DNA from: Actinomycetospora endophytica | Lineage (GTDB): Bacteria > Actinomycetota > Actinomycetes > Mycobacteriales > Pseudonocardiaceae | NCBI RefSeq assembly: GCF_021026375.1 | Contig: NZ_JAJNDB010000001.1 | Coordinates: 1,612,001-1,676,000, forward strand | DNA length: 64,000 nt | Reading direction: 5' to 3' | Shown: positions 24,706 to 59,548 of the stretch, in pieces | Layout: the number at the start of each line of letters is the position of its first letter | How positions within the stretch are numbered: position 1 is the first letter of the stretch | Made by a program: the position numbers and the translations under genes | The notes under the pieces: model-generated | Told to the model about the DNA's origin: nothing | Databases searched by the model: none | The model's input: only the letters and a program-made list of their open reading frames with translations

Positions 24706-26655
24706 ATGTCGTCGGTCCGGGCGGGGCCGACCCGAGAGGAGCACGAGATCGACGCGACGACGCAACCCGAAGCGCAGATCGCTACGGATTCGCGGGAGAC
24801 CACAACCCGATACAGCGCCTGGATCGCTCCGATCGCGGGCGTCGGGTCCGTACTCGTGTGCCTGGTTCTCCAGGCCGCGATCAGCCGCCTGCGGGTCCCG
24901 TTCCCGACCTACGCGGGGACCGCCGTCGCCGCCACTGTCGGCGCCGTGGTCGTCGGGGTGCTCGTCTGGATCGCCGCGCGAGAGAGCCGTGCCCGGTCGG
25001 CGGTAGCGACCCTCGCCGTCCCCGGGCTGCTCGCCGCCCTGGTGACCCTCTGGCTCGGGATGCTGCTGCAGGGCACGCGCTACTACCTCGGCGGCATCTC
25101 GATCGACCAGAGCTTCCGGACGCAGGCGCTCGCCCGGTACGCCGCCACGTGGTCGCTGGCCGACATGAACTACCTCGGCCTGCCGTCCTACTACCCGGCC
25201 GGCTGGTTCTGGCTCGGCGGCCGCGCTGCAGACCTCGCCGGGGTCCCCGCGTGGGAGTTCTACAAGATCTGGGCGATCCTGACGCTGGCCGTCGCGGCCT
25301 GGGCGGCGTTCGCGGCGTGGCGTCTCGTCGTGACGCCGGGTCGGGCCGTGCTCGTCGCGACCGCCACCGCCGTCGTCGGGCTGGGCGTCTCGTCGGCCGA
25401 GCCCTACGCGTGGCTGCTCGTGGCGCCGATGCCGCCGATCGCCGTGATCGTCTGGCACGCGATCCGGGCCGACGAGACCCGGCTCCGCGGGCTCGCCCTG
25501 GCCGCGACCGGGGTGTACCTCGGCGTGGCCGCCATGACCTACTCGCTGCACGCGGGGTTCTTCGGGGTCTACGTCGTGCTCGCGGCGCTGATCCCGACAC
25601 GGGGCCGGCCGGGGCGTCACCTGGTCCCGCGCATCACACGGGCCGCGGTCGTCGTCGTGATCGGCCTGGTGCTCGCCCTGGTGGTCTGGGCGCCCTTCGT
25701 GGTGGCCGCCCTCGCCGGTGGCGTGCCGCGCAGCGACGCTCAGCGGTACCTGCCCTACGACGGGGCGGTCTGGACCTTCCCGATGCTGCAGCCGTCGTCG
25801 ATCGGGGCGATGTGCCTCGTCGGGCTGATCGGGATCGTGCTGGGGTGGACGGTGCACGAGCGGCTCGCCCGGCCCCTCGCGGTGCTGGTGCTGCTGGTCT
25901 ACGCGTGGTTCGCGCTGACGCTGCCGGCGTTGCTGGTCGGGCAGACCACCCTCGCGTTCCGGCTCTCACCCGTCGTCGAGCTCGTCCTGGTGTGCGCGGG
26001 GGTGCTGACCGCGGTCGAGGCCGTGCTGTTCGCCCGCACCCGGTGGCCCGCGCTCGGAGGTCGGCTGCTGGCCCTGGGTGGGCTGCTGGCCGTCGTCGTG
26101 CTCGCGGCCTGCGCCCAGGGCGCGCTGTCGGCGGACGACGACACCGTCAAGGAGGCCTACTCCGACCCGTACCCGAGCACCGGTGCGCCGGCGGTCGGGG
26201 CGTTCGATCCGTCCCGGTCCGACTCGTGGGCGCCGCAGCTCGTCGGAGCGGTGCAGCAGGGGTCGGGTCGTCCGGCGTCGGACCTCGTCGTGCTCGGCGG
26301 CCCGACCCAGTTCTACGTCGACGCGCCCTTCCACGGCTTCCAGCAGTCCACGCCGCACTACGCGAACCCGCTCGCGCACTACGAGCAGCGCAACGACGCC
26401 GTGCGGCAGTGGTCCCGCGCGAGCGATCCGTCGGACCTGCTGCGGCGGTTGGACGCGTCCCCCTGGCCCGCGCCCCGGGCGTTCCTGTTCAGCCGGGGAC
26501 CGGGCGGGTCGCTGACGACGAACATCGTCCACGACGTGTTCCCGCAGTACCCGAACGTCTCGTCCGAGACCGTGAGCTTCCCCGGCCGGCTGTTCGACTC
26601 GCCCGCGTTCGAGCGCCGGGACATCGGTCCGTGGACGGTGGTCGTCCGCCGCTGA
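24706..26655 (+). CDS. aftA: Galactan arabinofuranosyltransferase AftA
   Basis: A 649-residue membrane enzyme with about 11 helices followed by a luminal C-terminal domain of about 180 residues. The AftA signature GTRYYLGGISIDQSFRTQAL, with its acidic residue in the first large loop, lies near residue 125-145, followed by LPSYYPAGWFWLGGR. AftA (GT85) primes arabinan by putting the first arabinofuranose residues on galactan, using decaprenyl-phosphoryl arabinose. The start is uncertain. The ATG at 24706 has GGGGG directly against it; an ATC at 24748 sits six bases after AGGAG and would drop 14 residues. The gene is divergent from Emb-like gene 2, with 146 bases between them. Confidence 0.9.
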   Translation: MSSVRAGPTREEHEIDATTQPEAQIATDSRETTTRYSAWIAPIAGVGSVLVCLVLQAAISRLRVPFPTYAGTAVAATVGAVVVGVLVWIAARESRARSAVATLAVPGLLAALVTLWLGMLLQGTRYYLGGISIDQSFRTQALARYAATWSLADMNYLGLPSYYPAGWFWLGGRAADLAGVPAWEFYKIWAILTLAVAAWAAFAAWRLVVTPGRAVLVATATAVVGLGVSSAEPYAWLLVAPMPPIAVIVWHAIRADETRLRGLALAATGVYLGVAAMTYSLHAGFFGVYVVLAALIPTRGRPGRHLVPRITRAAVVVVIGLVLALVVWAPFVVAALAGGVPRSDAQRYLPYDGAVWTFPMLQPSSIGAMCLVGLIGIVLGWTVHERLARPLAVLVLLVYAWFALTLPALLVGQTTLAFRLSPVVELVLVCAGVLTAVEAVLFARTRWPALGGRLLALGGLLAVVVLAACAQGALSADDDTVKEAYSDPYPSTGAPAVGAFDPSRSDSWAPQLVGAVQQGSGRPASDLVVLGGPTQFYVDAPFHGFQQSTPHYANPLAHYEQRNDAVRQWSRASDPSDLLRRLDASPWPAPRAFLFSRGPGGSLTTNIVHDVFPQYPNVSSETVSFPGRLFDSPAFERRDIGPWTVVVRR

Positions 26656-29400: not shown

Positions 29401-31278
29401 TCAGTCGAGCCCGAAGAGCCGGTGCCAGTTCCCGGCGTCGGTCAGTCGGGGCGCGGCCTCGCGCCAGCGAGCGGCGGCCTCGTCGCCCTCACGGACGAAC
29501 CGCCACAGCACCCGCGCACCGTCGCGGCCGAGACGCTTGAACGCCTCCGGGTCGCGCTGGCGCACCCGCACGCCGCCCTGGCCGGCGTCGGTCACCGCGA
29601 CCCGGTCGAACAGCGACACGTGCCACCAGTGGGCCTCGCCGGCGCCCACCGCCCCGACCGGGTGCGGCACCCGCCCGAGCGCCTGCTGCACGAAACGCTT
29701 GGCCATGACGAGCCCGGTCCGTGACGGCGTGCCGCCCGCCCGCACGATCGGCATCTCGCTCGGGCCGAGCCCGGGGGCGTCGTCGACCGGGTGCATGACG
29801 GTCTCGGGGTACGACGACCGCTCGCCCCGGATCCGCGCGGTCGCCGAGACCCCGCCGTCGTCGAGCACCGACGGCCCGACGAGGAAGTCCTCGACCGCCC
29901 GGATCAGCGTCGCGGCCAACCCGTAGTTCATCGACACGAGGTAGCGCCCGAGCAGGTCGCCGAGGGTCGCGGCGACGTGGCGCACCGGGAACCCGCTGTG
30001 CAGCGCCGACGTGATCATGGCGTTGCGCAGGTTGAAGTACCGGTGCCAGTCGTCCCAGTCCTTCCACGGGAAGTCGGCGTGCCAGAGGCCCGCCCCCGGG
30101 AGGGTCACCGTCGCGAACCCGTGAGCCCGCCCGCGGTAGCTGTATTCGACGTCGTCCCACTGGAAGAACAGCGGCAGCGGGTAGCCCATCGTCCGCGTGA
30201 CCTCGACCGGGATCAGGCAGGACCACCAGCCGGTGTAGCCCGCGTCGACTCGCCGATCCTGGACGTTCTTCGTGCCGTCCGGGAAGTAGGAGGTCACGTC
30301 GGACTCGCCGACGGCACCCTCCGAGACATGGCCGTTGGTGAGGTTCTCGAGCACGGCGTACTCGGCGCCGGCGAGGACCTGGGTCGGGTGCAGCAGGTTG
30401 AGCATCTGCGCGCCGACGATCGTCGGGTGCGCCGTGTACTGCGCGAACGCCGCCAGCCGGATGACGACCTCGGGCTCGCAGCGGACGTCGTCGTCCATGA
30501 ACAGCGCATCGGTGGGGACGTCGCCCGCGGCGCTGACGACCTCGTGCAGACCGCGGGTGAAGCCGCCGGAGCCGCCGAGGTTGGGCTGGCGCAGGTAGCG
30601 CAGGGTCGGGCCCATCGCCTCGCGCACCTCGGCGAAGGCCGGGCGGGACTCGACGGGGTCGGTGCCCTGGTCGACGACGATCACCTCGTCGACGACGCCG
30701 AGGACCTCCCGCTCGTCGGCGAGGGCCGCGAGGGTGGCGGCGCAGTCGTCGGCGCGGTTGTGGGTGCAGACGACGATGCTGGTGTGGCGCTGCTGCGCCG
30801 GGGCCTCGACCGTCCACCGCGCGTCGTGCAGGAGCAGTTCCGCGTCGTCGGTGACGATCTCGACCCACAGCCCGCCGCCGTCGAGAAAGCGGTCGAGCGT
30901 CGCCTCGAGCCGCAGGTCCTCGGTGCGCGCGTCGTGCACGGCGACCGTGCGGGGGACGCCGTTGGTGTCCGAGGCGCGCAGCATCACGCGGCCGGCCCCG
31001 CTGATCCGGCCCTCGAACCGCACCGAGCGCGCCGTCGTCCAGCGCTGCCAGTAGGAGGCGGGGAAGCGGCCGAAGTAGGTGTTCGTGCTGACCCGGCCGA
31101 ACGCGCCGACCCGCACGTGGCGGCGACGCCGCTCGGCGTGGCCGGACAGCACCTCGACGTACATCTCGTCCGGGATCTCGGTCGACGGCCCGGTGAAGAG
31201 CCCTCGCTGCACCACGAGACGCCCGGGCGCCGCCGGCGTGCTGGAGGCGTCCGTCGTCATCGTCTGCACGTCGGTCAC
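29401..31278 (-). CDS. GlfT2-like GT2 glycosyltransferase (paralogue)
   Basis: A 625-residue protein with the GlfT2 domain order: a beta-barrel head (TYFGRFPASYWQRWT), a GT-A domain starting TSIVVCTHNRADDC near residue 170, and a helical C-terminal part. Metal-binding DDD is in ALFMDDDVRCEPE and the WDD motif in FFQWDDVEYSYRG, followed by LWHADFPWKD. GlfT2 polymerises galactofuranose from UDP-Galf. The canonical glfT2 lies at 43.4 kb, and this copy differs in the acceptor region, so another sugar, linkage or acceptor is likely. GTG 31278 follows GAGAGG by eight bases; ATG 31260 is the alternative. A methyltransferase gene lies upstream in the same direction. Confidence 0.8.
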   Translation of the reverse strand: MTDVQTMTTDASSTPAAPGRLVVQRGLFTGPSTEIPDEMYVEVLSGHAERRRRHVRVGAFGRVSTNTYFGRFPASYWQRWTTARSVRFEGRISGAGRVMLRASDTNGVPRTVAVHDARTEDLRLEATLDRFLDGGGLWVEIVTDDAELLLHDARWTVEAPAQQRHTSIVVCTHNRADDCAATLAALADEREVLGVVDEVIVVDQGTDPVESRPAFAEVREAMGPTLRYLRQPNLGGSGGFTRGLHEVVSAAGDVPTDALFMDDDVRCEPEVVIRLAAFAQYTAHPTIVGAQMLNLLHPTQVLAGAEYAVLENLTNGHVSEGAVGESDVTSYFPDGTKNVQDRRVDAGYTGWWSCLIPVEVTRTMGYPLPLFFQWDDVEYSYRGRAHGFATVTLPGAGLWHADFPWKDWDDWHRYFNLRNAMITSALHSGFPVRHVAATLGDLLGRYLVSMNYGLAATLIRAVEDFLVGPSVLDDGGVSATARIRGERSSYPETVMHPVDDAPGLGPSEMPIVRAGGTPSRTGLVMAKRFVQQALGRVPHPVGAVGAGEAHWWHVSLFDRVAVTDAGQGGVRVRQRDPEAFKRLGRDGARVLWRFVREGDEAAARWREAAPRLTDAGNWHRLFGLD

Positions 31279-31378
31279 GGTCCGGCCCTCTCCCCCGATC
31301 GGCCGCGCCCACTGGTCGTCGGGCGCGTCGTCCTGCTCCCGCAGGGTAGGAGAACCGGTCGGGAGTGCGAGCACCGCG

Positions 31379-32287
31379 TCAGTTCGGGCGCGCCTCGTCA
31401 GCCGGGGTACGGGACGTCGGGGCGTCCACCTCGCGGGCACCGGTGAGCACGACGACGACCTGCTCGTGGTCGTGGGTGAACGCCTCGTAGACGTACTCGA
31501 CGTCGTGGGTGGCGACATGCTCCCGCCAGGCCCGGTGCTCGCCGTCCTGCCAGCCCGGGTGGTTGAGGTACTCGTCGAATACCAGCACCGACCCCGGGTG
31601 CAGGCGCGGGCCGACGAGGTCCAGCACCGTCGCCGTGGAGGAGTACAGGTCGGCATCAAGGTGCAGCAGGTCCACCGGGCCCGGGTGGGCCTCGAGGAAA
31701 CCGGGCAGCGTGTCCGAGAACCACCCGACGACGAGCTCGGCGCCCTCGACCTCCGGGACCGAGTCGACCGCGAAGGTGCCCGCGCGGAAGCCCGCCCGCC
31801 AGTCCTCGGGCAGGCCCTCGAAGGAGTCGAACCCGTACACCGCGCAGCCGCCCCGGTCCGCGGCGATGCGGGCCAGCGTCGCCCCGCTGTAGACCCCGAA
31901 CTCCAGCGCCATCCCGCCCCGTGGCGCGAGCGAGAGCGCATGGTCGAGCGTCTCGGCCGGGGTACCGAACGTGCGCGCCCCGGCCATCGACTCGCGGACG
32001 AAGCGCGCGCTCGAGTCGACCGCGTCCCGCTCACCTGCGGCGAGGATGTCGCGGCGGTCCCGGACCTCCCGGGCGTGCATCCAGGACTGCAGCGACTCGC
32101 GAAGCTCGGCGAGGCCCGAGTCGACGCGGGCGCCGAGCTCGGCGAGGCGCTCGTCCTGCTCGCGGCGCAGTGCGTCGACGTGGCGCTCCAGCAGGGGATC
32201 CACGGCGTTGCCCACGGCTCCCCGGAACCGTGCCCGGAGGGCCTGCCGCAGTCCGGGCCCGCGTCGCAGTCGTGGCATGGCGGCCAT
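31379..32287 (-). CDS. TylF-like SAM-dependent O-methyltransferase
   Basis: A 302-residue protein with a helical head of about 95 residues (LRREQDERLAELGARVDSGL, coiled-coil-like) and a methyltransferase domain of the TylF/macrocin type: MALEFGVYSGATLARIA as the SAM loop, YGFDSFEGLPEDW, LLHLDADLYSSTATVLD and VLVFDEYLNHPGWQDGEH. The DADLY and FDEY aspartates are the metal-binding residues of this sugar O-methyltransferase group. It is co-directional with the GlfT2-like gene 100 bases downstream, so it may methylate the sugar that enzyme adds. The start is uncertain: ATG 32287 has only a weak GGAACGG upstream, and ATG 32341 has none. Confidence 0.8.
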   Translation of the reverse strand: MAAMPRLRRGPGLRQALRARFRGAVGNAVDPLLERHVDALRREQDERLAELGARVDSGLAELRESLQSWMHAREVRDRRDILAAGERDAVDSSARFVRESMAGARTFGTPAETLDHALSLAPRGGMALEFGVYSGATLARIAADRGGCAVYGFDSFEGLPEDWRAGFRAGTFAVDSVPEVEGAELVVGWFSDTLPGFLEAHPGPVDLLHLDADLYSSTATVLDLVGPRLHPGSVLVFDEYLNHPGWQDGEHRAWREHVATHDVEYVYEAFTHDHEQVVVVLTGAREVDAPTSRTPADEARPN

Positions 32288-32419
32288 CGAACCGTTCCGT
32301 TCGGCCTGCGTCGACCACGTCGTCCGGGCTGTGTCGACCATGCCCCATGAGGAGCGTGGCGGGTCGGTGGCCGGGGGTAAACGCAGGGCAAATTCCGGGC
32401 TGCCCGTACGGTGCCCACC

Positions 32420-33931
32420 ATGAGGGCGAACGACGCTGGCGGACCGGCCGTCGCGGCGCGCCCCGTCGAGGCCGACCGCGAGGTGATCCGCTTCGCCGAC
32501 CCGGCCGATCGCACCGAGGGCGCCGTCGACGTGCTGCTCGACGGGCGGCGGGTCTGGTCGTTCCGGCTGGAGTCCGCCGAGCTCGGCGCGGACGGCCGGC
32601 GGGTCGTCGCCTGGCCCGGCCCGATCGTCGCCTCGCTGCGGGGCTCGGCAGAGGTCGCCCTGCGCAGCGTCGCCGACGGCGGGCGGTGGGGGGCCTGTGA
32701 GGTCGAGTTCACCCCCGACGCCGGGCGTGTCTCGTTCGCCGACGAGTACGGCCGGGACCTGGTGGTCAACAAGTGGGACCGGGCCGGTCGCGTCCTCGCC
32801 GATCACGACGAGTCCATCGTCGGCCGCCTCCTCGACCACGCCGACGAGGTGCGCGCGCTGCTGGTCGATGAGCTGGGGCTCGACGTCTTCGTCACCGGCG
32901 GCACGCTGCTCGGCCCGATCCGCGACGGGCACCTGATCGAGCACGACGACGACGTCGACTTCGCCTGGATCAGCCGCCACACCCAGCCCGTGGAGGTCGC
33001 GCGGGAGGGGTTCGAGATCGGCCGGGCCCTGCGCCGGGCCGGCTTCGACGTGGTCCGCCACTCGCCGGGCCACCTGCAGATGCACTTCGAGTACCAGGGC
33101 CTGGCCGACCACTACGTCGACGTGTTCGCCGGGTGGTTCGCCGACGGCTGGTGGCACCAGGTCTTCTGCATTCGCCACCCGGCCGAGCGGGCGGACCTGC
33201 TGCCGCCGATCCCGCTGCAGGTGGAGGACCGCGAGGAGCCGGCGCCGCGTACACCCGAGATTCATCTCGAGGCCAACTACGGCCCGGGGTGGCGCGTGCC
33301 CGACCCGGCCTTCCGGTTCGACACCCCGCCGGAGACCCGCCGCCGCCTGGAGAACTGGTTCCCGGGCCTCAACGGCGGCCGCGACGACTGGGACGATCTC
33401 CTGCGCGCCGAGCGCCAGGACGGGATCGCGCCCGCGTCGGGCTTCACCCGCTGGGTCACCGACCGGATCGACCCCACGGCGCCGGTCGTCGACCTCGGCT
33501 GCGGCAACGGGACCGACGCCCGGGCGTTCGCAACGGCGGGTCACGAGACGCTCGCGGTCGACTTCGCCCGGGAGGCCCTCGCGGCGATCCCGGCGACGCC
33601 CGCGCTGCGGACCCGGGTGCTGAACCTCCACGACCCGCGCACCACGGTCGCGTTCGGCGCGGAGCTGGCCGGCCGGCGGGTGCCCTGGGCGGTTCTGGTC
33701 CGCCGGACCGTCGAGACCCTCGGCCCGAGCGGGCGGGACCACCTGTTCCGGCTGCTCTCGATGGTGCTGCGGTGCGGTGGGCGCGCCCTCCTCGAGGTCG
33801 GCGACGGCGCGGTGCCCGTCGAGGACCTGTGCGCCGAGGCGGGACGGCACGGCCTGCGGGCGTCGGACACGGCGCGCGACGAGCAGGAAGCGGTGACGAG
33901 GATGGTGATGACGTGGACGCCGCGCGGGTGA
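32420..33931 (+). CDS. LicD-family phosphotransferase fused to a methyltransferase
   Basis: A 503-residue two-domain protein. Residues 1-120 form a beta-rich head of unknown type. Residues 140-330 are LicD-like: VTGGTLLGPIRDG at 159-170 and EHDDDVDFAW near 174-183, the nucleotidyltransferase-fold GG and D-x-D positions. LicD enzymes move phosphocholine or other alcohol phosphates from a CDP donor to a glycan. A class I methyltransferase domain follows, with VVDLGCGNGTDARAF near 356. I do not know this fusion as a standard arrangement. It starts an overlapping operon with a LicC-like enzyme and a glycerol-1-phosphate dehydrogenase. ATG 32420 is used; GTG 32411 is also possible. Confidence 0.8.
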   Translation: MRANDAGGPAVAARPVEADREVIRFADPADRTEGAVDVLLDGRRVWSFRLESAELGADGRRVVAWPGPIVASLRGSAEVALRSVADGGRWGACEVEFTPDAGRVSFADEYGRDLVVNKWDRAGRVLADHDESIVGRLLDHADEVRALLVDELGLDVFVTGGTLLGPIRDGHLIEHDDDVDFAWISRHTQPVEVAREGFEIGRALRRAGFDVVRHSPGHLQMHFEYQGLADHYVDVFAGWFADGWWHQVFCIRHPAERADLLPPIPLQVEDREEPAPRTPEIHLEANYGPGWRVPDPAFRFDTPPETRRRLENWFPGLNGGRDDWDDLLRAERQDGIAPASGFTRWVTDRIDPTAPVVDLGCGNGTDARAFATAGHETLAVDFAREALAAIPATPALRTRVLNLHDPRTTVAFGAELAGRRVPWAVLVRRTVETLGPSGRDHLFRLLSMVLRCGGRALLEVGDGAVPVEDLCAEAGRHGLRASDTARDEQEAVTRMVMTWTPRG

Positions 33932-34302
33932 GGGCCGGTCTCGTGGGCCGCGTCCGGTCGGTGGTGACCCGCGGCCCGATCATGCGGGTCCGGCTGCTGA
34001 CCGGCCGGGTGGTGACGCCCGAGGTCGCGGTGCTGCGGGACGAGCTCACCGAACTGCGGACCGCCCTCGACCGGCAGCGCGACGAGATCGCCGGACTGGG
34101 CCACGCCCTGGCGCGGGCCGAGGCCGAACGGGAGCAGTTGGCGGCTCGGGTCGACACCCTGGACGGCGACCTCGACGAGGCCCGCCGCCTGAACGTCCGG
34201 CTCGCGGAGCTCACCGACCTGGTCACCGAGGTCGTCCTCCCGCTGCACGACCGCGAGATCGACATCGAACGGCTGCGGCCGCACGACGCCGAGCCCCAGT
34301 GA
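33913..34302 (+). CDS. Coiled-coil protein, unknown
   Basis: A 129-residue protein. After a short basic head (VRSVVTRGPIMRVRLLTGR) it is one long heptad-patterned helix: LRDELTELRTALDRQRDEI, ARAEAEREQLAARVDTLD, then EARRLNVRLAELTDLVTEVV. It has no membrane segment or catalytic motif. Similar short coiled-coil proteins occur in actinobacterial glycan clusters, but I know no function. It overlaps the LicD fusion upstream and shares GTGA with the nucleotidyltransferase start downstream, so it belongs to the operon and may scaffold its enzymes. GTG 33913 is used; GTG 33928 is an equal alternative. Confidence 0.65.
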   Translation: MDAARVRAGLVGRVRSVVTRGPIMRVRLLTGRVVTPEVAVLRDELTELRTALDRQRDEIAGLGHALARAEAEREQLAARVDTLDGDLDEARRLNVRLAELTDLVTEVVLPLHDREIDIERLRPHDAEPQ

Positions 34303-35039
34303 TCGGGCTCGTCCTGGCCGCCGGGGCGGGCCGCAGGCTCCGGCCGTACACCGACTCGGTCCCGAAGGCGCTCGTCCCGGTGGACGGGACGACGACGATC
34401 CTGGACATCTGCCTGCGCAACCTCGCGGCGGTGGGCCTACGCCACGTCGTCGTCGTGGTCGGCTACGCCCGGCAGGCCATCGAGATCCTCCGCCCGGAGC
34501 TGGAACTCAGGCACGGCGTCGACATCGAGCTCGTCGTCAACCCGCACGCCGAGGACCGCAACAACGCGTACTCGCTCTGGACCGCGCGGGAGCACCTCCA
34601 CGACGGCGCCCTGCTCGTCAACGGCGACACCGTCCACCCGCCCACGGTCGAGGAGACGCTGCTCTCCCACCGCCACCCCGACGGGCCGGAGGTGCTCCTC
34701 GCGATGGACACCACCAAGTCCCTCGCCGAGGAGGAGATGAAGGTCGGGGTCGACGGCGAGGGCTACCTGGCCAGGATCACCAAGCTCATGCCCCCGGCCG
34801 AGGCGGCGGGCGAGTACATCGGCGTGTCCCTGATCGAGCCCGCCGCGGCCGCGCCGCTCGCGGACGCGCTGCAGGCGACGTGGGAGCGCGACCACGGCCT
34901 CTACTACGAGGACGGCTACCAGGAGTACGCCGACCGGGGTCGGCTCGTCCGGCCGGTCCCGCTCGGCCCGACGACGTGGGTCGAGGTCGACGACCACACC
35001 GACCTCGCGCGGGCACGGGACGTCGCGTGCCGCTGCTGA
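34299..35039 (+). CDS. LicC-like sugar/alcohol-phosphate nucleotidyltransferase
   Basis: A 246-residue NTP-transferase. The signature LAAGAGRRLRPYTDSVPKAL at the N-terminus binds the nucleotide, VNGDTVHP carries the metal-binding Asp, and WVEVDDHTDLARA closes the active site. The NPHAEDRNNAYSLWTAREHL segment is very like the LicC type of phosphocholine cytidylyltransferase (NN-Y-SL). Expected reaction: CTP plus an alcohol or sugar phosphate giving a CDP-linked donor. The adjoining glycerol-1-phosphate dehydrogenase and LicD protein suggest glycerol phosphate rather than choline; that is an inference. The start overlaps the coiled-coil gene by four bases. Confidence 0.85.
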   Translation: MIGLVLAAGAGRRLRPYTDSVPKALVPVDGTTTILDICLRNLAAVGLRHVVVVVGYARQAIEILRPELELRHGVDIELVVNPHAEDRNNAYSLWTAREHLHDGALLVNGDTVHPPTVEETLLSHRHPDGPEVLLAMDTTKSLAEEEMKVGVDGEGYLARITKLMPPAEAAGEYIGVSLIEPAAAAPLADALQATWERDHGLYYEDGYQEYADRGRLVRPVPLGPTTWVEVDDHTDLARARDVACRC

Positions 35040-36115
35040 GCCGAATCCTCCTGGGTCCGCTCGAGGTCGACATCCGGCCCGGAGCCGTCGACGGTCTGGC
35101 CCGCCTGCTGGCCGACCAGCGCATCAGCGGTGGGGGACAGGTCGCCGTCGCCGTCGGTCCCGGGCTCGGCGAGGAGATCGCCTCGCGGCTCGCCGACACC
35201 CTCGCCACCGCGTCGGTCTTCGGGGTCGACGGGGGCTCGGTGGACGAGGCGGTGCGGCTGCAGGACACGATCCGCGCCTCCGGGCGCGGGTTCGACGCCC
35301 TCGTCGGCATCGGCGGCGGCCGCACTCTCGACGTCACGAAGTACGCCGCCACCCGGCTCGGACTGCCGATGGTCTCGGTGGCCACGAACCTCGCCCACGA
35401 CGGCGTGTGCTCCCCGGTGTCGTCGCTGGAGACCGAGATCGGCAAGGAGTCGTTCGGGGTCACGATGCCGATCGCGGCCGTCGTCGACCTCGACTACGTG
35501 CGGCGCGCACCCGTCGAGATGGTGCGCTCGGGGGTGGGCGACGTCGTCAGCAACCTCTCGGCGATCGCCGACTGGGAGCTGGCGGGGCGCGAGCGCGGCG
35601 AGCGGGTGGACGGGCTCGCGGTGTCGTTCGCGCGGATGGCAGCCGAGTCGGTGCTGCACCATCACGGTCACGTCGACGACCCGGAGTTCCTCGTCGTGCT
35701 GGCGGAGGCCCTCGTCCTGTCCGGGATCGCGATGACGGCGGCCGGGTCGAGCCGGCCCTGCAGCGGCGGCGACCACGAGATCCTGCACGCGGTGGACCGG
35801 CTCTACCCCGGGACCGGCCAGCACGGCGAGCTGGCGGGGCTCGGCGCCCTGTTCGCCACGTCGCTGCGGGTCGACGGCGACCGGGCCTTCGCCGACCTGG
35901 ACGCGTGCCTGCGCCACCACGACCTGCCCCGCCGGCCCGGCGACCTCGGCCTGACCTCCGCGCAGTTCGCCGAGGCGGTCCGCGTCGCGCCGGCGACCCG
36001 GCCGGACCGCTACACCGTGCTCGAGCACCTCGCGCTCGACCGCCCCGCGATCGACCGGGCCATCGAGGCGTGCGCGGACCGAGCTGCCTCGGCCAGGTGC
36101 CACAGCGGCTCTTGA
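35027..36115 (+). CDS. Glycerol-1-phosphate dehydrogenase (AraM/EgsA-like)
   Basis: A 362-residue member of the iron-type alcohol dehydrogenase superfamily. The dinucleotide-binding loop is IGGGRTLDVTKYAA, followed by VATNLAHDGVCSPVSSL. The metal site is suggested by DVVSNLSAIADWEL, GGDHEILHAVDRL and GTGQHGELAGLG, whose Asp and two His positions match the glycerol-1-phosphate dehydrogenase group. These enzymes reduce dihydroxyacetone phosphate to sn-glycerol-1-phosphate, the archaeal stereoisomer, which is uncommon in bacteria. The GTG start at 35027 follows GGGA by six bases and lies inside the nucleotidyltransferase gene (13-base overlap). It is the last gene of the LicD operon and likely supplies its substrate. 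Confidence 0.85.
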   Translation: MPLLSRILLGPLEVDIRPGAVDGLARLLADQRISGGGQVAVAVGPGLGEEIASRLADTLATASVFGVDGGSVDEAVRLQDTIRASGRGFDALVGIGGGRTLDVTKYAATRLGLPMVSVATNLAHDGVCSPVSSLETEIGKESFGVTMPIAAVVDLDYVRRAPVEMVRSGVGDVVSNLSAIADWELAGRERGERVDGLAVSFARMAAESVLHHHGHVDDPEFLVVLAEALVLSGIAMTAAGSSRPCSGGDHEILHAVDRLYPGTGQHGELAGLGALFATSLRVDGDRAFADLDACLRHHDLPRRPGDLGLTSAQFAEAVRVAPATRPDRYTVLEHLALDRPAIDRAIEACADRAASARCHSGS

Positions 36116-36146: not shown

Positions 36147-36623
36147 ATGCTGGAGGCGCACCGGGCCACGTCCTTCCGTTCCCGGTGGGAGGTCCGCGAG
36201 GACGACGCCCCGTTGATCGTGCTGGAGAAGAAGGGGTGGCGTTCCGGGGTCGAGTACACCCTCGACGGCACCGCCTACGAGGTCCGCTCCACCTGGACCG
36301 GCGGGCAGTACACGCTGACCAGCGGCGACTCCGAGCTCGCCCAGGCGCAGCGGATCGGCCGCAAGCACTGGACGGTGACGACCCCGGAGGGCGAGTACCA
36401 CTTCCGGCGCCGCTCGATCTGGAAGGCCGACCAGGAGTGGGTCGCCTCCCCGGACGCCCCGTCGGCGCTGGGCGGCATCCGCCGGACCGGGACCTGGCGC
36501 GGCGACGCCGAGGCCCGGCTGCCGGGGATGCCCACCCCGCACGCGGTGTTCGTCCTCGCCGTCGTGCTGCTCATGTGGGAGCAGGCTGCCGCCGCGGCGA
36601 CGGGTGCCTCGGTGTCGAGCTGA
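36147..36623 (+). CDS. Conserved hypothetical protein
   Basis: A 158-residue protein. Residues 8-115 are rich in short strands with many Trp, Arg and Thr residues (RSRWEVREDDAPLIVLEKKG, GGQYTLTSGD, GEYHFRRRSIWKADQEW). They may form a small barrel like the tubby/LURP-one group; I cannot confirm this. A hydrophobic segment (AVFVLAVVLLMWEQAAA) near residue 132 could be a tail anchor. ATG 36147 is preceded by GGTGGGATT. The 3' end overlaps the convergent membrane protein gene by 53 bases. It could be the last gene of the LicD operon, 31 bases after it, but nothing ties its function to that pathway. Confidence 0.6.
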   Translation: MLEAHRATSFRSRWEVREDDAPLIVLEKKGWRSGVEYTLDGTAYEVRSTWTGGQYTLTSGDSELAQAQRIGRKHWTVTTPEGEYHFRRRSIWKADQEWVASPDAPSALGGIRRTGTWRGDAEARLPGMPTPHAVFVLAVVLLMWEQAAAAATGASVSS

Positions 36624-37337: not shown

Positions 37338-38735
37338 ATGACGGGCAGAACGGACGACGTCGGGCGCGGCGACCATGGTCGCAGAGCGGCCGTCGCGGTG
37401 GCGCTGGGTGTGATCGCGCTCGTGGTCGCGGCGCTCGTCACCGGGGTCGGACCCGGGCGCGCCGACGCCGCCGTCGTCACCGGACGGATCGCGAACACCG
37501 CGGGCGGCTGCCTGGAGAACGCGAACAACGCGGCGACCGCGAACAACCCGCAGCAGCTCAACAACTGCGGGACGGGCGCCGGGCAGCAGTGGTCCCGCTA
37601 CGCGGACGGCACCCTGCGCGTCCAGGGTCTGTGCGCGGACCTGGCCGGCGGTTCCACCGCGGCGAACACCCGCGTCCTGCTGGCCGCCTGCTCGACGACG
37701 TCGACCTCACAGCGCTGGACGCTCTACGCCGCCGGGTACGTGCAGAACCAGAAGTCCGGGACGTGCATGGCCCCGGTGAACAACCAGATCTACGCCAAGG
37801 TCGCCGTCGTCGTCGCGACCTGTGCGAACGTGAACGCGCAGAAGTGGACGCTGCCGGCGGCCTCGACCACGACCACGCCGGCCCCGACCACGACCCCGAA
37901 GCCCACCACCGTCCCGCCCACCACGACGCCGAAGCCGACGACGGTGGCTCCGACGACCACGCCGAAGCCCACCACCACGGCGCCGCCCACGACGACGCCG
38001 AAGCCGACGACGACCGTGCCCCCGACGACGACCACGAGTCCCATGCCGACACAGACCGCACAGACCTGGACCTCGGACTTCACCGGTTCCGGGTTCGGCA
38101 AGTTCGACGACACCCCGTGGAACAACGTCGGGGCGAGCGCCCCGGTGATCGTCAGCTCGCCGGTGACCGCGGGCGCGAAGTCCGCCCAGTTCACGATGCC
38201 CGCCGGTGGCACGCGCACCGAGGTCGTGCCGACCACCGCCGAGTTCACCGAGGGCCAGGAGCGCTGGTTCCGCTTCTCGTTCTACCTGCCGCCGAGCTTC
38301 CCCACGCAGGTCACGTCGTGGCAGGTGATCACCCAGTGGAAGAACGACGGTGACGGCTCGCCGCCGCTCGAGGTCACCGTCGGGAACGGGAACCTCAAGC
38401 TCGAGGGCGGGTACGGCTACCCCGGCACCCCGAAGACGTTCAGCCAGGTGATCGGCCCGGCGGCCACGGGCAAGCGGACCGACCTGATCGTCCACGTCGT
38501 CTTCTCGCGTGACCCGTCCCGCGGCACCGTCGACGTCTGGCGCGACGGCACCCAGGCGATCTCGGGCTACAAGCCGGCGGGCGGGACGCTCTACCCGACG
38601 AGTGCCGCCTCGACCGACACCCTGATCTCCTACTGGAAGATGGGGATCTACCGCGACTCGGCCATCACGCAGCCGGCCCAGTACACGATCGAGAGCGCGA
38701 AGGTGGGGAACACCCAGGCGCAGGTCGCGAACTGA
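37338..38735 (+). CDS. Secreted R-type lectin plus polysaccharide-lyase-like protein, copy 1
   Basis: A 465-residue exported protein: signal segment to about residue 45 (VALGVIALVVAALVTGV ... ADAA), a ricin-type beta-trefoil to about 175 with the QxW repeats GQQWSR, SQRWTL and AQKWTL, a Thr/Pro linker to about 238, then a lyase-like domain. That domain has GTRTEVVPTTAEF, WQVITQWKNDGDGSPPLEV, DLIVHVVFSRDPSRGTVDVW and YWKMGIYRDS. It matches the lipoprotein at 4.8 kb and the tandem copy downstream. The lectin should hold a glycan for the catalytic domain; the substrate is unknown. An AT-rich stretch with TTAACTGATTGCTC lies about 60 bases upstream. Confidence 0.85.
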   Translation: MTGRTDDVGRGDHGRRAAVAVALGVIALVVAALVTGVGPGRADAAVVTGRIANTAGGCLENANNAATANNPQQLNNCGTGAGQQWSRYADGTLRVQGLCADLAGGSTAANTRVLLAACSTTSTSQRWTLYAAGYVQNQKSGTCMAPVNNQIYAKVAVVVATCANVNAQKWTLPAASTTTTPAPTTTPKPTTVPPTTTPKPTTVAPTTTPKPTTTAPPTTTPKPTTTVPPTTTTSPMPTQTAQTWTSDFTGSGFGKFDDTPWNNVGASAPVIVSSPVTAGAKSAQFTMPAGGTRTEVVPTTAEFTEGQERWFRFSFYLPPSFPTQVTSWQVITQWKNDGDGSPPLEVTVGNGNLKLEGGYGYPGTPKTFSQVIGPAATGKRTDLIVHVVFSRDPSRGTVDVWRDGTQAISGYKPAGGTLYPTSAASTDTLISYWKMGIYRDSAITQPAQYTIESAKVGNTQAQVAN

Positions 38736-38887: not shown

Positions 38888-40420
38888 ATGGCGGACGGGG
38901 TGCAGTCGTGTCGGTCGGGGGGCCGTCGTCGGGCGGGGGCGTCGTTCGTCGCCATCCTGGGGGCGCTGGCGCTGCTGGCCGGGGTCCTCGCGGGCGCCAT
39001 AGGCGGCGCCGGTGAGGCCGAGGCGGCGACGGTGACCGGCACGATCGCCGACAAGGGCGGCGGCTGCCTGGAGAACGCCAACAACTCGACGGCGAACAAC
39101 AACCCGCAGCAGCTCAACTACTGCGGCACGAACCTCGGTCAACAGTGGTCGCGCTATGCCGACGGCACGATCCGCGTCCAGGGCCGCTGCATCGACACCC
39201 TCAACGGGGCGACCGCGAACGGCACCCGCGTCGTGCTCGTCGTGTGCTCGACGACCTCGACCTCCCAGCGCTGGACGATCGCCGCGACCGGCGTGATCAC
39301 GAATCAGAAGTCGAAGACCTGTCTCGCGCCGCTGAACAACCAGATCTACGCCAAGGTCGTCGTCACGATCTCCACCTGCGCGAACACGAACGCGCAGAAG
39401 TGGACGGTGCCTGCGGTGTCCACGACGACCACCACGACGACACCACCGCCCACCACCACGACGACGGTGCCGCCGACGACGACCACGACGGTGCCCCCGA
39501 CGACCGTGCCGCCGACCACCACGACGACCGTGGTGCCGCCGACCACGACGACGACGGTGCCGCCGACCACCACGGACCCGACCACCACTACGGACCCGAC
39601 GACGACCACGGTGCCGCCGACCACGACGACGGACCCGACGACCACGACCGTCGTGCCCCCGACGACCACGACGACGGTGCTGCCCACCACGACCACGACG
39701 GTGCCGCCGACGACCACCACCACGACCCCGCCGCCGAACCAGACCGCGCAGTCCTGGGACTCGGCCTTCACCGCGTCCGGGTTCGGGAAGTTCGACGACA
39801 CCCCCTGGAACAACGTGGGCGCGAGCGCCCCCGTGATCGTCAACTCGCCGGTGACCGCCGGCGCGAAGTCCGCGCAGTTCACGATGCCCGCGAAGGGCAC
39901 GCGCACCGAGATCGTCCCGACGACGGCCGAGTTCAGCGAGGGCCAGGACCGCTGGTTCCGGTTCTCGTTCTCCCTGCCGGCGAACTTCCCGACCACGGTG
40001 ACGACCTGGCAGGTGATCACCCAGTGGAAGAACGACGGTGACGGCTCACCGCCGCTGGAGATCACGGTCGGCAAGGGCAACCTCAACCTCGAGGGCGGCT
40101 ACGGCTACCCCGGGACCCCGAAGACGTTCGCCCAGACCCTCGCCCCGGCGACGACCGGTCAGCGCATCGACCTGATCCTGCACGTCTTCTTCTCGAAGGA
40201 CCCGACGAAGGGCACCGTGGACATCTGGAAGAACGGCACGCAGGTGCTCTCGGGGTACAAGCCGGCCGGCGGGACGCTCTACCCGACGACGGCGGCCGCC
40301 ACGGCGACCTCGGACTCCTACTGGAAGATGGGGATCTACCGCGACAACACGATCACCCAGCAGGCGCAGTACACGATCGAGAGTGCGAAGGTCGGGAACA
40401 CCCAGGCGCAGGTCTCCTAG
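38888..40420 (+). CDS. Secreted R-type lectin plus polysaccharide-lyase-like protein, copy 2
   Basis: A 510-residue tandem duplicate of the previous gene. Signal segment to about residue 40, beta-trefoil with GQQWSR, SQRWTI and AQKWTV to about 178, a much longer Thr/Pro linker to about 290 coded by ACG/ACC/CCG repeats, and a lyase-like domain with WQVITQWKNDGDGSPPLEI and YWKMGIYRDN. The lyase part is nearly the same as copy 1, so duplication is recent or conversion is active. The linker is a likely site of length change and of heavy O-glycosylation. The stop TAG lies in the left arm of a palindrome. Initiation is probably limited by the hairpin ending at 38887. Confidence 0.85.
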   Translation: MADGVQSCRSGGRRRAGASFVAILGALALLAGVLAGAIGGAGEAEAATVTGTIADKGGGCLENANNSTANNNPQQLNYCGTNLGQQWSRYADGTIRVQGRCIDTLNGATANGTRVVLVVCSTTSTSQRWTIAATGVITNQKSKTCLAPLNNQIYAKVVVTISTCANTNAQKWTVPAVSTTTTTTTPPPTTTTTVPPTTTTTVPPTTVPPTTTTTVVPPTTTTTVPPTTTDPTTTTDPTTTTVPPTTTTDPTTTTVVPPTTTTTVLPTTTTTVPPTTTTTTPPPNQTAQSWDSAFTASGFGKFDDTPWNNVGASAPVIVNSPVTAGAKSAQFTMPAKGTRTEIVPTTAEFSEGQDRWFRFSFSLPANFPTTVTTWQVITQWKNDGDGSPPLEITVGKGNLNLEGGYGYPGTPKTFAQTLAPATTGQRIDLILHVFFSKDPTKGTVDIWKNGTQVLSGYKPAGGTLYPTTAAATATSDSYWKMGIYRDNTITQQAQYTIESAKVGNTQAQVS

Positions 40421-40494: not shown

Positions 40495-42176
<1,682 letters not shown>

Positions 42177-42191
42177 CCCCACCCGCGCGGC

Positions 42192-43310
42192 GTGGGTCTG
42201 CCGAGGCCGCTGGCCGACCTCCCGATCACCGACTGGCCGTTCCTGGTCGGCCTCGGGGTCGCCGGCCTGGCGGCGGTCGCCGTGCTGGTCGTCGCGATCC
42301 GCCGTCGGGGGTGGCCGACCCGGGTGGTGGCGGGCCTCGCCGTCGTCGTACTGGTCCTGATCAACGCGGCCGCCGGCCTCAACACGTACGTCGACTTCGA
42401 CCGCACCCTCGGCGAGGCGGTGGGGCAGGTCCCGCCCGACGAGGTGCCGCTGGCCAACCTGCTGCGGCGGATCGCGGTCCCCGCGTCCGGCATCGTCGCC
42501 CCCGTCGCGATCCCGACGAAGGTGTCGGGCTTCGTCGCCCGGCCGGCGCTGATCTACGTGCCGCCGGCCTGGTTCCGCCGGCCTCGCCCGCGGCTGCCGG
42601 TGATCGTGCTGCTGCACGGCACCCCCGGCGGGCCGGACGTGTGGTTCGGGGCCGGACAGGCGACCGCGACCGCCGACGCCTGGGCGACCGCCCACCGCGG
42701 AGTTGCGCCGATCATCGTCGCGCCCGACGTGAACGGCTCGATCGACGCGGACTCCGAGTGCGTCGACTCCCCGGCCGGGCGGGTCGAGACGGCCCTGACG
42801 GTGGACCTGCCGCGCTTCGTCCAGAGCACGTTCCGGACGCTGCCGCCGGGTCCGGCCTGGGCGGTCGCGGGCTTCTCGGAGGGCGGCTCGTGCGCGTTGA
42901 TGCTGGCCCTGCGGCACCCGACGCTCTTCGGCACCGTCGGCGACTACGGCGGCCTCGCCGGCCCGCGCCTCGGCGACACCAACGCCGACACCGCATCCAC
43001 CCTCGCCGACCTCTTCGGGGGCTCGACGGCACAGTTCGCGGCCCACGAACCCGCCGACCTGCTCGCGCGGGCGCGGTTCGCCCGGCTCGGGGGCTGGTTC
43101 GAGGTCGGCGACGCGGACCCGGAGCCGGCGGCCGCCCAGGCCGCGCTCGCCCCGGCGGCGCGGCGGGCCGGGATCGCGACCTGCTCGGTGGTGATCCCCG
43201 GCGGCGCGCACACCTTCGACGTGTTCTCGGCGGGATTCGCCGACTCGCTGCCGTGGCTCGCCGGGCGCCTGGGGATCGGCCCGGCCCGGGTGCCGTGCCC
43301 GCAGCAGTGA
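42192..43310 (+). CDS. Membrane-anchored esterase (esterase D / antigen 85-like fold)
   Basis: A 372-residue protein with two membrane segments at the N-terminus (WPFLVGLGVAGLAAVAVLVV and VVAGLAVVVLVLINAAAGL) and an outside alpha/beta-hydrolase domain. IVLLHGTPGGPDVWFG gives the oxyanion loop, the nucleophile elbow is AVAGFSEGGSCALML, and a late VIPGGAHTFDVFSAG holds the His. The layout is that of the esterase family which includes mycolyltransferases and S-formylglutathione hydrolase. The organism shows no mycolate genes here, so an acyl or sugar ester of the wall is more likely; this is a guess. It lies between glf and glfT2 on the same strand. Confidence 0.8.
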   Translation: MGLPRPLADLPITDWPFLVGLGVAGLAAVAVLVVAIRRRGWPTRVVAGLAVVVLVLINAAAGLNTYVDFDRTLGEAVGQVPPDEVPLANLLRRIAVPASGIVAPVAIPTKVSGFVARPALIYVPPAWFRRPRPRLPVIVLLHGTPGGPDVWFGAGQATATADAWATAHRGVAPIIVAPDVNGSIDADSECVDSPAGRVETALTVDLPRFVQSTFRTLPPGPAWAVAGFSEGGSCALMLALRHPTLFGTVGDYGGLAGPRLGDTNADTASTLADLFGGSTAQFAAHEPADLLARARFARLGGWFEVGDADPEPAAAQAALAPAARRAGIATCSVVIPGGAHTFDVFSAGFADSLPWLAGRLGIGPARVPCPQQ

Positions 43311-43364: not shown

Positions 43365-45371
43365 ATGACGAGCACGCAGGAGGGCCGGTCGACCGTGGAT
43401 CCGACGGTGCGTGACGCCGAATCCGCCCTGCTCCAGCGGATCATCCTGCCGCGCCCGGCCGATCCGGCGACGGTGCGTTCGCTCTACCTCGACGAGGGCA
43501 CCGCGACCAGCCTGCGCTCGACCGCGCCCACGGCCCAGCGGCCGGGGACGGTCAACACCGAGGCCGACGACTACGTGCTGCACCTGGCGTCGTCCGGGGG
43601 CAGGCACGCCGAGGTGCTGTCCCGGACGAGTGCCCGGATCCCGGAGCGCACCGAGACGTCGTTCGCGGCCTACTTCAACGCCTTCCCGGCCTCCTACTGG
43701 CGGCGCTGGTCGATCCTCGACGCGGTCCACCTGCGGCTCCACCTGACCGGGTCGGGCCGGGTCGACGTCTACCGCTCCACCGCGCGCGGCGTGCCGGTGC
43801 ACGTGCACGGCGAGCTCGTCGCCGGCGACGCCTCCCTGGACATCCCGGTGCCGCTGAAGCCGTTCGAGGACGGCGGGTGGATCTGGTTCGACCTGTCCAG
43901 CGGGAACGAGCCGCTCGAGCTCGTCGACGGCGGCTGGTTCGCCGACCGCGCGGCACCCGGGCGCGCCGCGGTCACCGTCGGGATGCCGACCTTCAACCGG
44001 CCGTCGGACTGCGTCGACACGCTGCGCGCGCTCGGCGAGGACCCCCTCGTCCGGGACGTGCTGACCGCGGTCGTCATCCCCGACCAGGGCACGTCCAAGG
44101 TCCGCAACCAGGACGGCTTCGACCAGGCCGAGGCGCTGCTCGGCGACCGGCTGCGGATCGTCGACCAGCCCAACCTCGGCGGCTCCGGCGGCTACAGCCG
44201 GATCATGTACGAGGCGCTCGAGCACACCGACTGCGAGCACATCCTGTTCATGGACGACGACGTCGTCCTCGAGCCGGACTCGGTGCTGCGCGCGCTCGCG
44301 TTCGCCCGGTTCGCGCGGGCGCCGATGCTCGTCGGCGGCCAGATGCTCTCGCTGCAGGCACGGTCGCACCTGCACGCCATGGGCGAGGTCGTCGACCGGA
44401 CCACGTTCTTCTGGCAGCTCGCGCCGAACACCGAGGACGACCACGACTTCGCCGTCGACTCGCTGCGCGAGACGCTCTGGATGCACCGGCGCACCGACGT
44501 CGACTACAACGCCTGGTGGATGTGCATGATCCCCCGGGTCGTCGCCGAGCAGATCGGTCAGCCGCTCCCGCTGTTCATCAAGTGGGACGACTGCGAGTAC
44601 GGCCTGCGCGCCGGCGCCCACGGCTTCCCGACGGCGACCGTGCCCGGCGTCGCGATCTGGCACCTCAGCTTCGTCGAGAAGGACGACAGCTCCGACTGGC
44701 AGGCCTACTTCCACGCCCGGAACCGGCTCGTCGTCGCCGCCCTGCACGGCCCCGACGACCCGAAGGCGATGCTGCTCGACTCGCTCAAGCGCACCCTGCG
44801 GCACCTGTTCCTGCTGGAGTACTCCGCGATCGCACTGCACCAGATGGCGATGCGCGACTTCCTGTCCGGCCCGCGGGCGCTGTTCGGGTCACTCCCGACG
44901 GCGCTCGGTGCGGTCCGGGCGACCCGCGCCCGCTTCTCCGACGGGACCGTCGTCCCCAGCGCCCGGGACCTCCCCGAGCCGCCGATCGACGCGCTGGCCG
45001 CACAGCTCTGGCCGAACCCGCCGCAGGGCAAGGTCGCGCAGGTCAAGGCCCTGGTCGGGGCGCTGCGCCACCAGCTGCGCCCCGCCGACCCCGGGGCCTG
45101 GGAGCGGCCGCAGCGCAACGTCCCCGCCGAGCACGGCACCTGGTTCCTGCTCTCCCGGCTCGACGGGGCCACCGTCTCGACCTCGGACGGCACCGGCGTC
45201 ACCTACCGCAAGCGCGACCGCAGGCAGTTCTGGGAACTGCTGCGCGTCTCGGTCGCCCTGCACCAGCAGGTGCTGCGCTCCTGGCCCGCGCTGCGCCGCC
45301 GCTACCGGGACGGCATGCCCGAGCTGGTCAGTCGCGAGGCCTGGAACGAGCAGGTGTTCTCCCGGTTCTAG
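43365..45371 (+). CDS. glfT2: Galactofuranosyltransferase GlfT2
   Basis: A 668-residue polymerase that builds galactan from UDP-galactofuranose with alternating linkages. The order is a beta-barrel head (AAYFNAFPASYWRRWS), a GT-A domain from about residue 203 (VTVGMPTFNRPSDCVDTLRA) and a helical tail. The metal site is HILFMDDDVVLEPD; the acceptor/catalytic loop is LFIKWDDCEYGLRAGAHGFP, followed by AIWHLSFVEKDDSSDWQAYF. All match the mycobacterial enzyme as I recall it. A second GlfT2-like gene lies at 29.4-31.3 kb. The stop TAG opens the left arm of palindrome B. Confidence 0.95.
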   Translation: MTSTQEGRSTVDPTVRDAESALLQRIILPRPADPATVRSLYLDEGTATSLRSTAPTAQRPGTVNTEADDYVLHLASSGGRHAEVLSRTSARIPERTETSFAAYFNAFPASYWRRWSILDAVHLRLHLTGSGRVDVYRSTARGVPVHVHGELVAGDASLDIPVPLKPFEDGGWIWFDLSSGNEPLELVDGGWFADRAAPGRAAVTVGMPTFNRPSDCVDTLRALGEDPLVRDVLTAVVIPDQGTSKVRNQDGFDQAEALLGDRLRIVDQPNLGGSGGYSRIMYEALEHTDCEHILFMDDDVVLEPDSVLRALAFARFARAPMLVGGQMLSLQARSHLHAMGEVVDRTTFFWQLAPNTEDDHDFAVDSLRETLWMHRRTDVDYNAWWMCMIPRVVAEQIGQPLPLFIKWDDCEYGLRAGAHGFPTATVPGVAIWHLSFVEKDDSSDWQAYFHARNRLVVAALHGPDDPKAMLLDSLKRTLRHLFLLEYSAIALHQMAMRDFLSGPRALFGSLPTALGAVRATRARFSDGTVVPSARDLPEPPIDALAAQLWPNPPQGKVAQVKALVGALRHQLRPADPGAWERPQRNVPAEHGTWFLLSRLDGATVSTSDGTGVTYRKRDRRQFWELLRVSVALHQQVLRSWPALRRRYRDGMPELVSREAWNEQVFSRF

Positions 45372-59400: not shown

Positions 59401-59548
59401 GCGCGGGCGACGTCGTGCCCGCGGCCGGCCACGAGTAGGTCACGTCGGGCCGCGACACCGGCGCGAACGGGAACGCCAGCGCCGCGAGCACCGACACCAC
59501 GCCGGCGACGAGCGCGGTCAGTCGTAAGGCCCTATCCGAGATATTCAC
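56492..59548 (-). CDS. EmbA/B/C-type arabinosyltransferase, paralogue 3
   Basis: A 1018-residue Emb-layout protein: short head, helix 1 and luminal domain ([20 protein letters not shown]), catalytic loop [18 protein letters not shown] near residue 270, [19 protein letters not shown], and a C-terminal binding domain with [20 protein letters not shown], in part. The VDDGY-IAGI form and [12 protein letters not shown] following it are closer to the mycobacterial Emb pattern as I remember it than paralogues 1 and 2 are. The ATG lies inside the end of paralogue 4 (17-base overlap), so the two are co-translated and may form a heterodimer as EmbA-EmbB do. dprE1 follows after 58 bases. Confidence 0.92.

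Follow-up and report, generated by a model that had tools for sequence, protein, structure and literature searches.

A gene set within the arabinogalactan locus of Actinomycetospora endophytica joins a predicted FKRP-type transferase to a putative glycerol phosphate-activating pair

Four overlapping genes and their orthologues

In Actinomycetospora endophytica, a 64,000-nucleotide stretch of genomic DNA (the window) carries four plus-strand genes, here named A to D, that overlap in series from 32420 to 36115. They bring together a predicted LicD/FKRP-type transferase fused to a methyltransferase (A), a small DUF6752 protein (B), a LicC-like nucleotidyltransferase (C) and a homologue of glycerol-1-phosphate dehydrogenase (D). 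On balance, and with some reserve, we favor the view that they form a donor-plus-transferase unit putting phosphoglycerol on a wall glycan by way of cytidine diphosphate (CDP)-1-glycerol. The open reading frame (ORF) calls are as follows:

32420..33931, plus strand: gene A, 503 amino acids, with a predicted N-terminal beta domain, LicD/FKRP-type transferase domain and C-terminal class I methyltransferase domain
33913..34302, plus strand: gene B, 129 amino acids, DUF6752 protein of coiled-coil character (PF20537, E 3.9e-12)
34299..35039, plus strand: gene C, 246 amino acids, LicC/PntC/IPCT-like nucleotidyltransferase (PF12804, E 4.7e-15)
35027..36115, plus strand: gene D, 362 amino acids, start GTG 35027, EgsA/AraM-like dehydrogenase (PF13685, E 9e-28)

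Gene B, which ends at 34302, starts either at GTG 33913, giving a 19-base overlap with A, or at GTG 33928, giving one of 4 bases; C overlaps B by 4 bases and D overlaps C by 13. The third-position GC of A to D is 0.95-0.98. Orthologue comparison found the four genes in identical order in two other Actinomycetospora genomes, with identities of 76-77% for A, 74-75% for B, 87-88% for C and 86-87% for D, and ratios of non-synonymous to synonymous substitution (dN/dS) of 0.13-0.34 for A, C and D. Hence, all four have the marks of real genes and the observation is confirmed. A first-pass annotation, made from the letters of the window, had claimed four genes overlapping by 4 to 19 bases; the ORF calls and the orthologues bear out its coordinates and overlaps, and all the motifs that it quoted are present. 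It had placed B correctly in the overlapping set but overlooked its DUF6752 identity.

Gene A is predicted to fuse an FKRP-type transferase to a methyltransferase

Behind the N-terminal domain of A lie two further domains:

32816..33319, plus strand: LicD/FKRP-type domain of A, residues ~133-300, with GGTLLG and HDDDVD
33371..33925, plus strand: class I S-adenosylmethionine methyltransferase domain of A, residues ~318-502, with a DLGCGNG motif

The residues H175, D176, D178 and D180 are invariant in an alignment of 21 A-family rows, and every one of these 21 members matches Pfam LicD at E≤0.01 (best 6.1e-8). Pfam matches of A to methyltransferase families are weak. When searched against solved structures, the profile of the alignment retrieved human fukutin-related protein (FKRP, E 5.9e-11) together with many class I methyltransferases, and the FKRP-A alignment pairs GG-LLG and three spaced aspartates, motifs that are invariant in the 21 rows. 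A Foldseek search with the AlphaFold2 model of A (mean predicted local distance difference test score, pLDDT, 89.7) likewise returned methyltransferases and FKRP (E 1e-7, probability 1.00, ~22% identity, one domain). Profile, alignment and Foldseek on the predicted model thus agree on an FKRP-like fold with the GG-LLG and D-D-D motifs. As modeled, A combines an N-terminal beta domain, a LicD/FKRP-type transferase and a methyltransferase in one chain; the LicD-like label first given to this gene holds for one domain, motifs included, and had missed the C-terminal methyltransferase. The structural-alignment listing for A gave methyltransferases alone because that domain filled the best-scoring matches listed, and the FKRP identity is taken instead from Foldseek and the profile search.

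Genes D and C resemble a dehydrogenase and a cytidylyltransferase of alcohol phosphates

The first-pass annotation called D a glycerol-1-phosphate dehydrogenase; Pfam, PDB matches and putative metal ligands support an EgsA/AraM-like assignment. D scores 97.6 bits on PF13685 (Fe-ADH_2) against a cut-off of 28 and far outscores the seven other Fe-ADH_2 matches of the genome (E 5e-28, with 6e-12 for the next). Its best PDB matches are glycerol-1-phosphate dehydrogenases (E 9e-42), and of the five found at E<1e-20, four carry that title and one is a glycerol dehydrogenase (3ce9). D172, H250 and H266, which we take to be the metal ligands of the EgsA/AraM family, are invariant in nine rows and align with D, H and H of 4rgq. 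From its sequence family, D is proposed to make sn-glycerol-1-phosphate from dihydroxyacetone phosphate (DHAP).

The best solved relatives of C include LicC, Thermotoga IPCT (inositol-phosphate cytidylyltransferase) and PntC. C had first been called LicC-like, and LicC is indeed among its nearest named enzymes, but so are IPCT and PntC; all three use CTP. The AlphaFold2 model of C (pLDDT 95.7) matches LicC with a Foldseek E of 5e-18 (TMq 0.78), phmmer gives E 1e-11, and both the fold and the N-terminal nucleotide motif are present. The C-LicC sequence alignment ends before the choline-binding aromatic region. A LicC-like query run at E≤1e-12 over our genus sample, 18 Actinomycetospora genomes that were also part of the family-wide draw for A, found only C itself. 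We propose that C acts as a cytidine triphosphate (CTP):glycerol-1-phosphate cytidylyltransferase. The idea that its structure proves CTP use was dropped, as the resemblance to enzymes that use uridine triphosphate (UTP) or deoxythymidine triphosphate (dTTP) is too close.

Different cytidylyltransferase modules stand beside A

Relatives of A were taken from a scan of named genomes, and the loci counted are the best 80 of 188; their flanks reach 10 kb, several loci being short. A cytidylyltransferase module stands beside an A gene in 19 of the 80, always within ~1.5 kb, and the module is exchanged between loci. The C-D module occurs at two (L093, L094), both Actinomycetospora, besides the window. 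TagD-like modules occur at three (L099, L103, L104; the two scanned match TIGR01518 at E 2e-33 and 6e-33), fusions of IspD with a short-chain dehydrogenase/reductase (IspD+SDR) at seven (L105-L107, L109-L111, L113; the one scanned matches NF001183 at E 6e-43 and TIGR00453 at E 6e-48), and both kinds together at one (L118). A LicC-like gene without D was found at six (L116, L119, L131, L143, L152, L168), the L131 copy adjoining a second A copy. L129, whose IspD-type match (26%) lies 7.5 kb from A, was left out of the 19. Since some homologues of A adjoin TagD-like or IspD+SDR cytidylyltransferases, A can be expected to work with a CDP-alditol donor.

In a tree of A built from the window and 79 loci (L164 omitted), the three C-D rows form one clade (100/100), sister to the Actinomycetospora rows with A-B only (99/96), and a wider clade (100/99) unites both with eight Geodermatophilaceae rows, of which three are TagD-linked. 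In L099 and L103 the TagD-like gene (11949-12389 and 11979-12380) comes directly after gene B or the gene following A; with L104, these Geodermatophilaceae loci are in effect a CDP-glycerol version of the operon. At L106 (8619-10004) and six similar Arthrobacter-type loci, the IspD+SDR fusion lies directly before A and is like a CDP-ribitol synthase; these loci are perhaps a bacterial counterpart of the ISPD-FKRP pair. One of the seven, L113, clusters with Arthrobacter in the tree; its record bears the title Vibrio cholerae strain 35D and is probably mislabeled or contaminated.

Within the genus sample, A is present in six of the 18 genomes and C in three, all three being among the six. In the other three A carriers (L079-L081), A-B occupies the same site and B is followed directly by the gene that comes after D in the window. 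The notion of four genes widely kept together was rejected: A-B and C-D each form a unit of their own, and the two are combined in a single small clade. Parts resembling IspD (36%) occur in three of the 18 genomes, one of which (G265) has A-B only. The possibility that the A-B sister genomes obtain CDP-glycerol from a TagD encoded elsewhere was also considered and no such gene was found; a TagD-like match, below the cut-off, occurs only in G257, a C-D genome.

Small proteins near A in its relatives form clusters present in 30, 13 and 7 of the 80 loci, and among those scanned DUF6752 was found again in two small proteins after A (L099 and L116). A match to glf, GlfT2 or the GlfT2 paralogue described below occurs in 16 of the 80 loci, linking A with galactan genes across several families. 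In addition, a protein family with a HLGLPKTATTYLQ start is found in 29 of the 80; its copy in L116 (11656-12813) has no Pfam match at E≤0.001 and is perhaps sulfotransferase-like.

C and D form a pair in many Actinobacteria

An order-wide draw of 249 genomes was searched with C; its families are coded, and f15 is taken by inference as Micromonosporaceae. Among the matches listed that span more than half of the query, relatives at least 52% identical to C come from the window genome and from one other family, f15. All 29 loci with the best-scoring f15 matches (L010-L038) have C and D overlapping, with a CDP-alcohol phosphotransferase match after them; the phosphotransferase of a further f15 copy (L040) belongs to PF01066. 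More divergent f15 loci (L043, L044, L221, L222) hold C and D and no match to that phosphotransferase query.

Tight linkage of C and D extends across many Actinobacteria. A profile of D matched 42 of 396 genomes in a phylum-wide draw at E≤1e-40, and 20 further D loci were examined, 18 from that draw and two from f15. C lies at most 51 bases upstream in 12 of them, a distant C-like gene (30-36%) lies 87-3279 bases off in four, and the last four have none. In L203, from the group coded g102 (Streptomyces by inference), two CDP-OH_P proteins flank C-D, one of them carrying a DUF5941 fusion, and a glycosyltransferase family 2 (GT2) gene and an ATP-binding cassette (ABC) permease and ATPase come after it. 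L204, L205 and L220 are similar, and the four represent an uncharacterised phosphopolymer cluster, with the DUF5941 fusion in L203 and L205. The genome of L220 (G826) also carries a second D copy without C (L219, 9379-10449). In genome G157, which has C-D at L043, two LicD-like genes elsewhere adjoin a distant C-like nucleotidyltransferase (L046, 6882-9929).

The three Actinomycetospora copies form one clade in the C tree and in the D tree alike, with a sister that lacks support, and hence no donor lineage is claimed.

The operon lies in an arabinogalactan locus

The region around A-D is an arabinogalactan locus, and A-D sits between its genes. The features of the window outside the operon are:

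15352-18873: EmbC-like gene
24706-26655: AftA
29401..31374, minus strand: GlfT2 paralogue, candidate galactofuranosyltransferase and possible maker of the acceptor (PF17994, E 6e-22; PF19320, E 2e-20)
31379..32215, minus strand: TylF-like O-methyltransferase, divergent, start uncertain (PF13578, E 9e-14; PF05711, E 3e-11; scanned as 31379-32389)
36147..36623, plus strand: downstream gene with no function assigned, after D in the window and directly after B in the three A-B-only relatives
37338-38735 and 38888-40420: neighboring pair of genes, both encoding a ricin-type lectin domain together with a polysaccharide lyase domain
40983-42176: Glf
42192-43310: esterase gene of family PF00756, lying between glf and glfT2
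43365-45371: GlfT2
59532-62705: second EmbC-like gene

The divergent GlfT2 paralogue and sugar O-methyltransferase had been noted at first annotation, and Pfam matches confirm both. PF00756 is, we presume, the family that includes the mycolyltransferases.

A proposed route through CDP-1-glycerol

The nearest solved transferase to A uses CDP-ribitol and the neighbors of some A homologues, enzymes unrelated to one another, resemble makers of CDP-glycerol or CDP-ribitol, so that A most likely transfers alditol phosphates from CDP. With C-D as the donor module of this clade, the donor would most simply be CDP-glycerol formed from the product of D, that is, CDP-1-glycerol. We infer the substrates, stereochemistry, acceptor, methylation and role of B to be these: D would reduce DHAP to sn-glycerol-1-phosphate, C would couple this to CTP to give CDP-1-glycerol, and the FKRP-like domain of A would pass the glycerol phosphate of this nucleotide on to a sugar-chain hydroxyl, the chain being most likely the galactan made by the neighboring GlfT2 paralogue. 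The methyltransferase domain of A may methylate either the acceptor or the newly attached group, and the coiled coil of B may scaffold or space the complex.

As a plan, phospho-group transfer, methyl transfer and a coiled coil recall WbdD, which we take to be a kinase-methyltransferase with a coiled-coil ruler that terminates O antigen and whose layout resembles the methyltransferase of A plus B. The methyltransferase domain of A matches WbdD weakly (E 5e-5, profile search); A differs in having a LicD/FKRP-type transferase instead of a kinase, and the coiled coil is on a separate gene.

More tentatively, and with somewhat more doubt than belief, we suggest that actinobacterial glycerol-1-phosphate dehydrogenase homologues serve wall glycopolymers rather than ether lipids. 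They would make CDP-1-glycerol with a LicC-like enzyme, at least two unrelated transferase types (a CDP-alcohol phosphotransferase and the FKRP-like-methyltransferase fusion) would spend it, and the outcome would be galactan that bears phosphoglycerol of archaeal configuration as a decoration or a cap.

Several observations weigh against the CDP-1-glycerol unit. The first-pass annotation had expected the gene set to be kept together in related genomes, and genome context gives the complete A-B-C-D set in only three of the 18 Actinomycetospora genomes. TagD gave no match at E≤1e-10 in the three relatives with A-B alone, and the genus has no IspD+SDR fusion at E≤1e-20, so that A-B in those relatives may use another donor or none. 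With these queries no donor module was found in the remaining 61 of the 80 A loci, several of which are short, and the TagD-like and IspD+SDR neighbors that were scanned all fall under the curated cut-offs. Around C or D loci outside Actinomycetospora (L010-L045 and L203-L222, with L010-L038 spanning only 1.5 kb each side), no match to A was seen, and C-D in other Actinobacteria often adjoins CDP-alcohol phosphotransferases. As for the proteins themselves, the Pfam LicD (PF04991) match of A has E 4e-4 and 20.9 bits, under the gathering cut-off of 22.6. C is only ~20% identical to LicC, PntC and IPCT, and its fold is also common to UTP and dTTP enzymes, with near-equal structural scores. D scores 231.9 bits (E 1e-68) on NF002022, the NAD(P)-dependent glycerol-1-phosphate dehydrogenase model, whose curated cut-off is 413, so that it is better described as working like EgsA/AraM than as a certified member; the D protein of the f15 locus L040 scores 252 bits. 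The stereochemistry of the proposed product comes from the family assignment of D alone.

Alternative roles for the C-D pair

The low NF002022 score of D, and the fact that C has no close relative of tested substrate, would also suit a pair that makes another CDP-polyol, D reducing a different phosphorylated ketose or aldehyde, C activating the product and A transferring it to a glycan. The CDP-2-glycerol route of pneumococcus is, we assume, a model for such a pathway, and the Arthrobacter-type loci do pair A with an IspD+SDR protein matching IspD (TIGR00453) and D-ribitol-5-phosphate cytidylyltransferase (NF001183). However, the PDB entries that D matches below E 1e-20 are the four glycerol-1-phosphate dehydrogenases and 3ce9, with D172, H250 and H266 aligned there. 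We consider this alternative unlikely, and the one to be taken most seriously.

C-D might instead make CDP-1-glycerol for a CDP-alcohol phosphotransferase, yielding a lipid or a soluble phosphodiester, with its position beside A incidental. C-D does adjoin such genes in the Micromonospora-like and Streptomyces-like genomes. However, a search at E≤1e-5 for the Micromonospora-type enzyme found nothing in the window genome, where more distant members may exist, and the two of 18 genus genomes that matched (G259, G262) both lack C-D. Moreover, overlapping reading frames tie C-D to A-B, and other A homologues adjoin other cytidylyltransferases, which makes an incidental position quite unlikely.

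An insertion of C-D with no functional tie to A-B would explain why C-D is absent from the same site in three relatives that have A-B alone. We find this improbable, as three species share the gene order, with proteins 74-88% identical and the dN/dS values given above for A, C and D.

A phosphonate route, in which D would reduce phosphonoacetaldehyde and C activate hydroxyethylphosphonate, as PntC does with aminoethylphosphonate, seems very improbable. Phosphoenolpyruvate (PEP) mutase exceeds the TIGR02320 cut-off in none of the 18 genus genomes and none of 12 other D-bearing genomes, a result that has no positive control, as none of 14 control genomes exceeded it either. Weaker PEP mutase matches in 18 of 18 and three of 12 (best 127 and 125 bits vs 320) are probably isocitrate lyase-type relatives. 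A supply of sn-glycerol-1-phosphate from D to archaea-like ether lipids, the part that AraM plays in Bacillus and one suggested for Streptomyces from gene content (PMC6431249), is scarcely credible here, where PcrB (prenylglyceryl phosphate synthase, PF01884) matches none of the 18 genus genomes and does match B. subtilis and four archaea among the controls.

Relation to known systems

The first-pass annotation held that known LicC/LicD systems use choline, which is too narrow: FKTN uses CDP-ribitol, CDP-3-glycerol and CDP-1-glycerol, and in vitro it prefers CDP-ribitol, with CDP-1-glycerol behind it and slightly ahead of CDP-3-glycerol (PMC8587909). Its suggestion of phosphoglycerol of archaeal stereochemistry at the surface is novel in part. 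sn-Glycerol-1-phosphate is already known on bacterial surfaces, where it arises from phosphatidylglycerol, and CDP-1-glycerol is likely absent from bacteria according to the same source (PMC8262930), but a CDP-1-glycerol route through a glycerol-1-phosphate dehydrogenase homologue would be new in bacteria. No bacterial pathway of this kind was found in the literature searched, as far as its accessible portions go; bacterial homologues of the dehydrogenase are treated there chiefly in connection with archaea-like lipids (PMC6431249, PMC5059525, PMC13400652).

Compared with FKTN and FKRP working with ISPD, A has the same predicted transferase fold and motifs and a proposed CDP-alditol donor, but it is bacterial, fused to a methyltransferase and accompanied by a coiled-coil partner and a donor module resembling glycerol-1-phosphate dehydrogenase. 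The LicC/LicD phosphocholine systems share LicD-type motifs with A and the LicC-like fold with C, whereas D would here make glycerol phosphate. TagD would give the same kind of product, CDP-glycerol, and TagD-like genes adjoin A homologues in three Geodermatophilaceae loci; however, TagD belongs to another Pfam family (PF01467) and uses sn-glycerol-3-phosphate. D aligns with EgsA/AraM over most of its length and keeps the putative metal ligands, its proposed role being in a wall glycan and not in an ether lipid.

A Streptomyces region described in 2026 contains araM, tagG, tagH, a CDP-alcohol phosphatidyltransferase, a GT2 and a sugar-phosphate nucleotidyltransferase (PMC13118837). It probably holds the same C-D pair, as the g102 loci combine C, D, CDP-OH_P, GT2 and an ABC transporter, but the place of the LicD-type gene is taken there by CDP-alcohol phosphotransferases and an ABC exporter.

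If the proposal is right, the recurrent C-D pair beside glycan or phosphopolymer genes would give bacterial glycerol-1-phosphate dehydrogenase homologues a concrete, testable function, and the A family, with its swapped donor modules, would provide bacterial relatives of FKTN and FKRP, two human proteins linked to muscular dystrophy.

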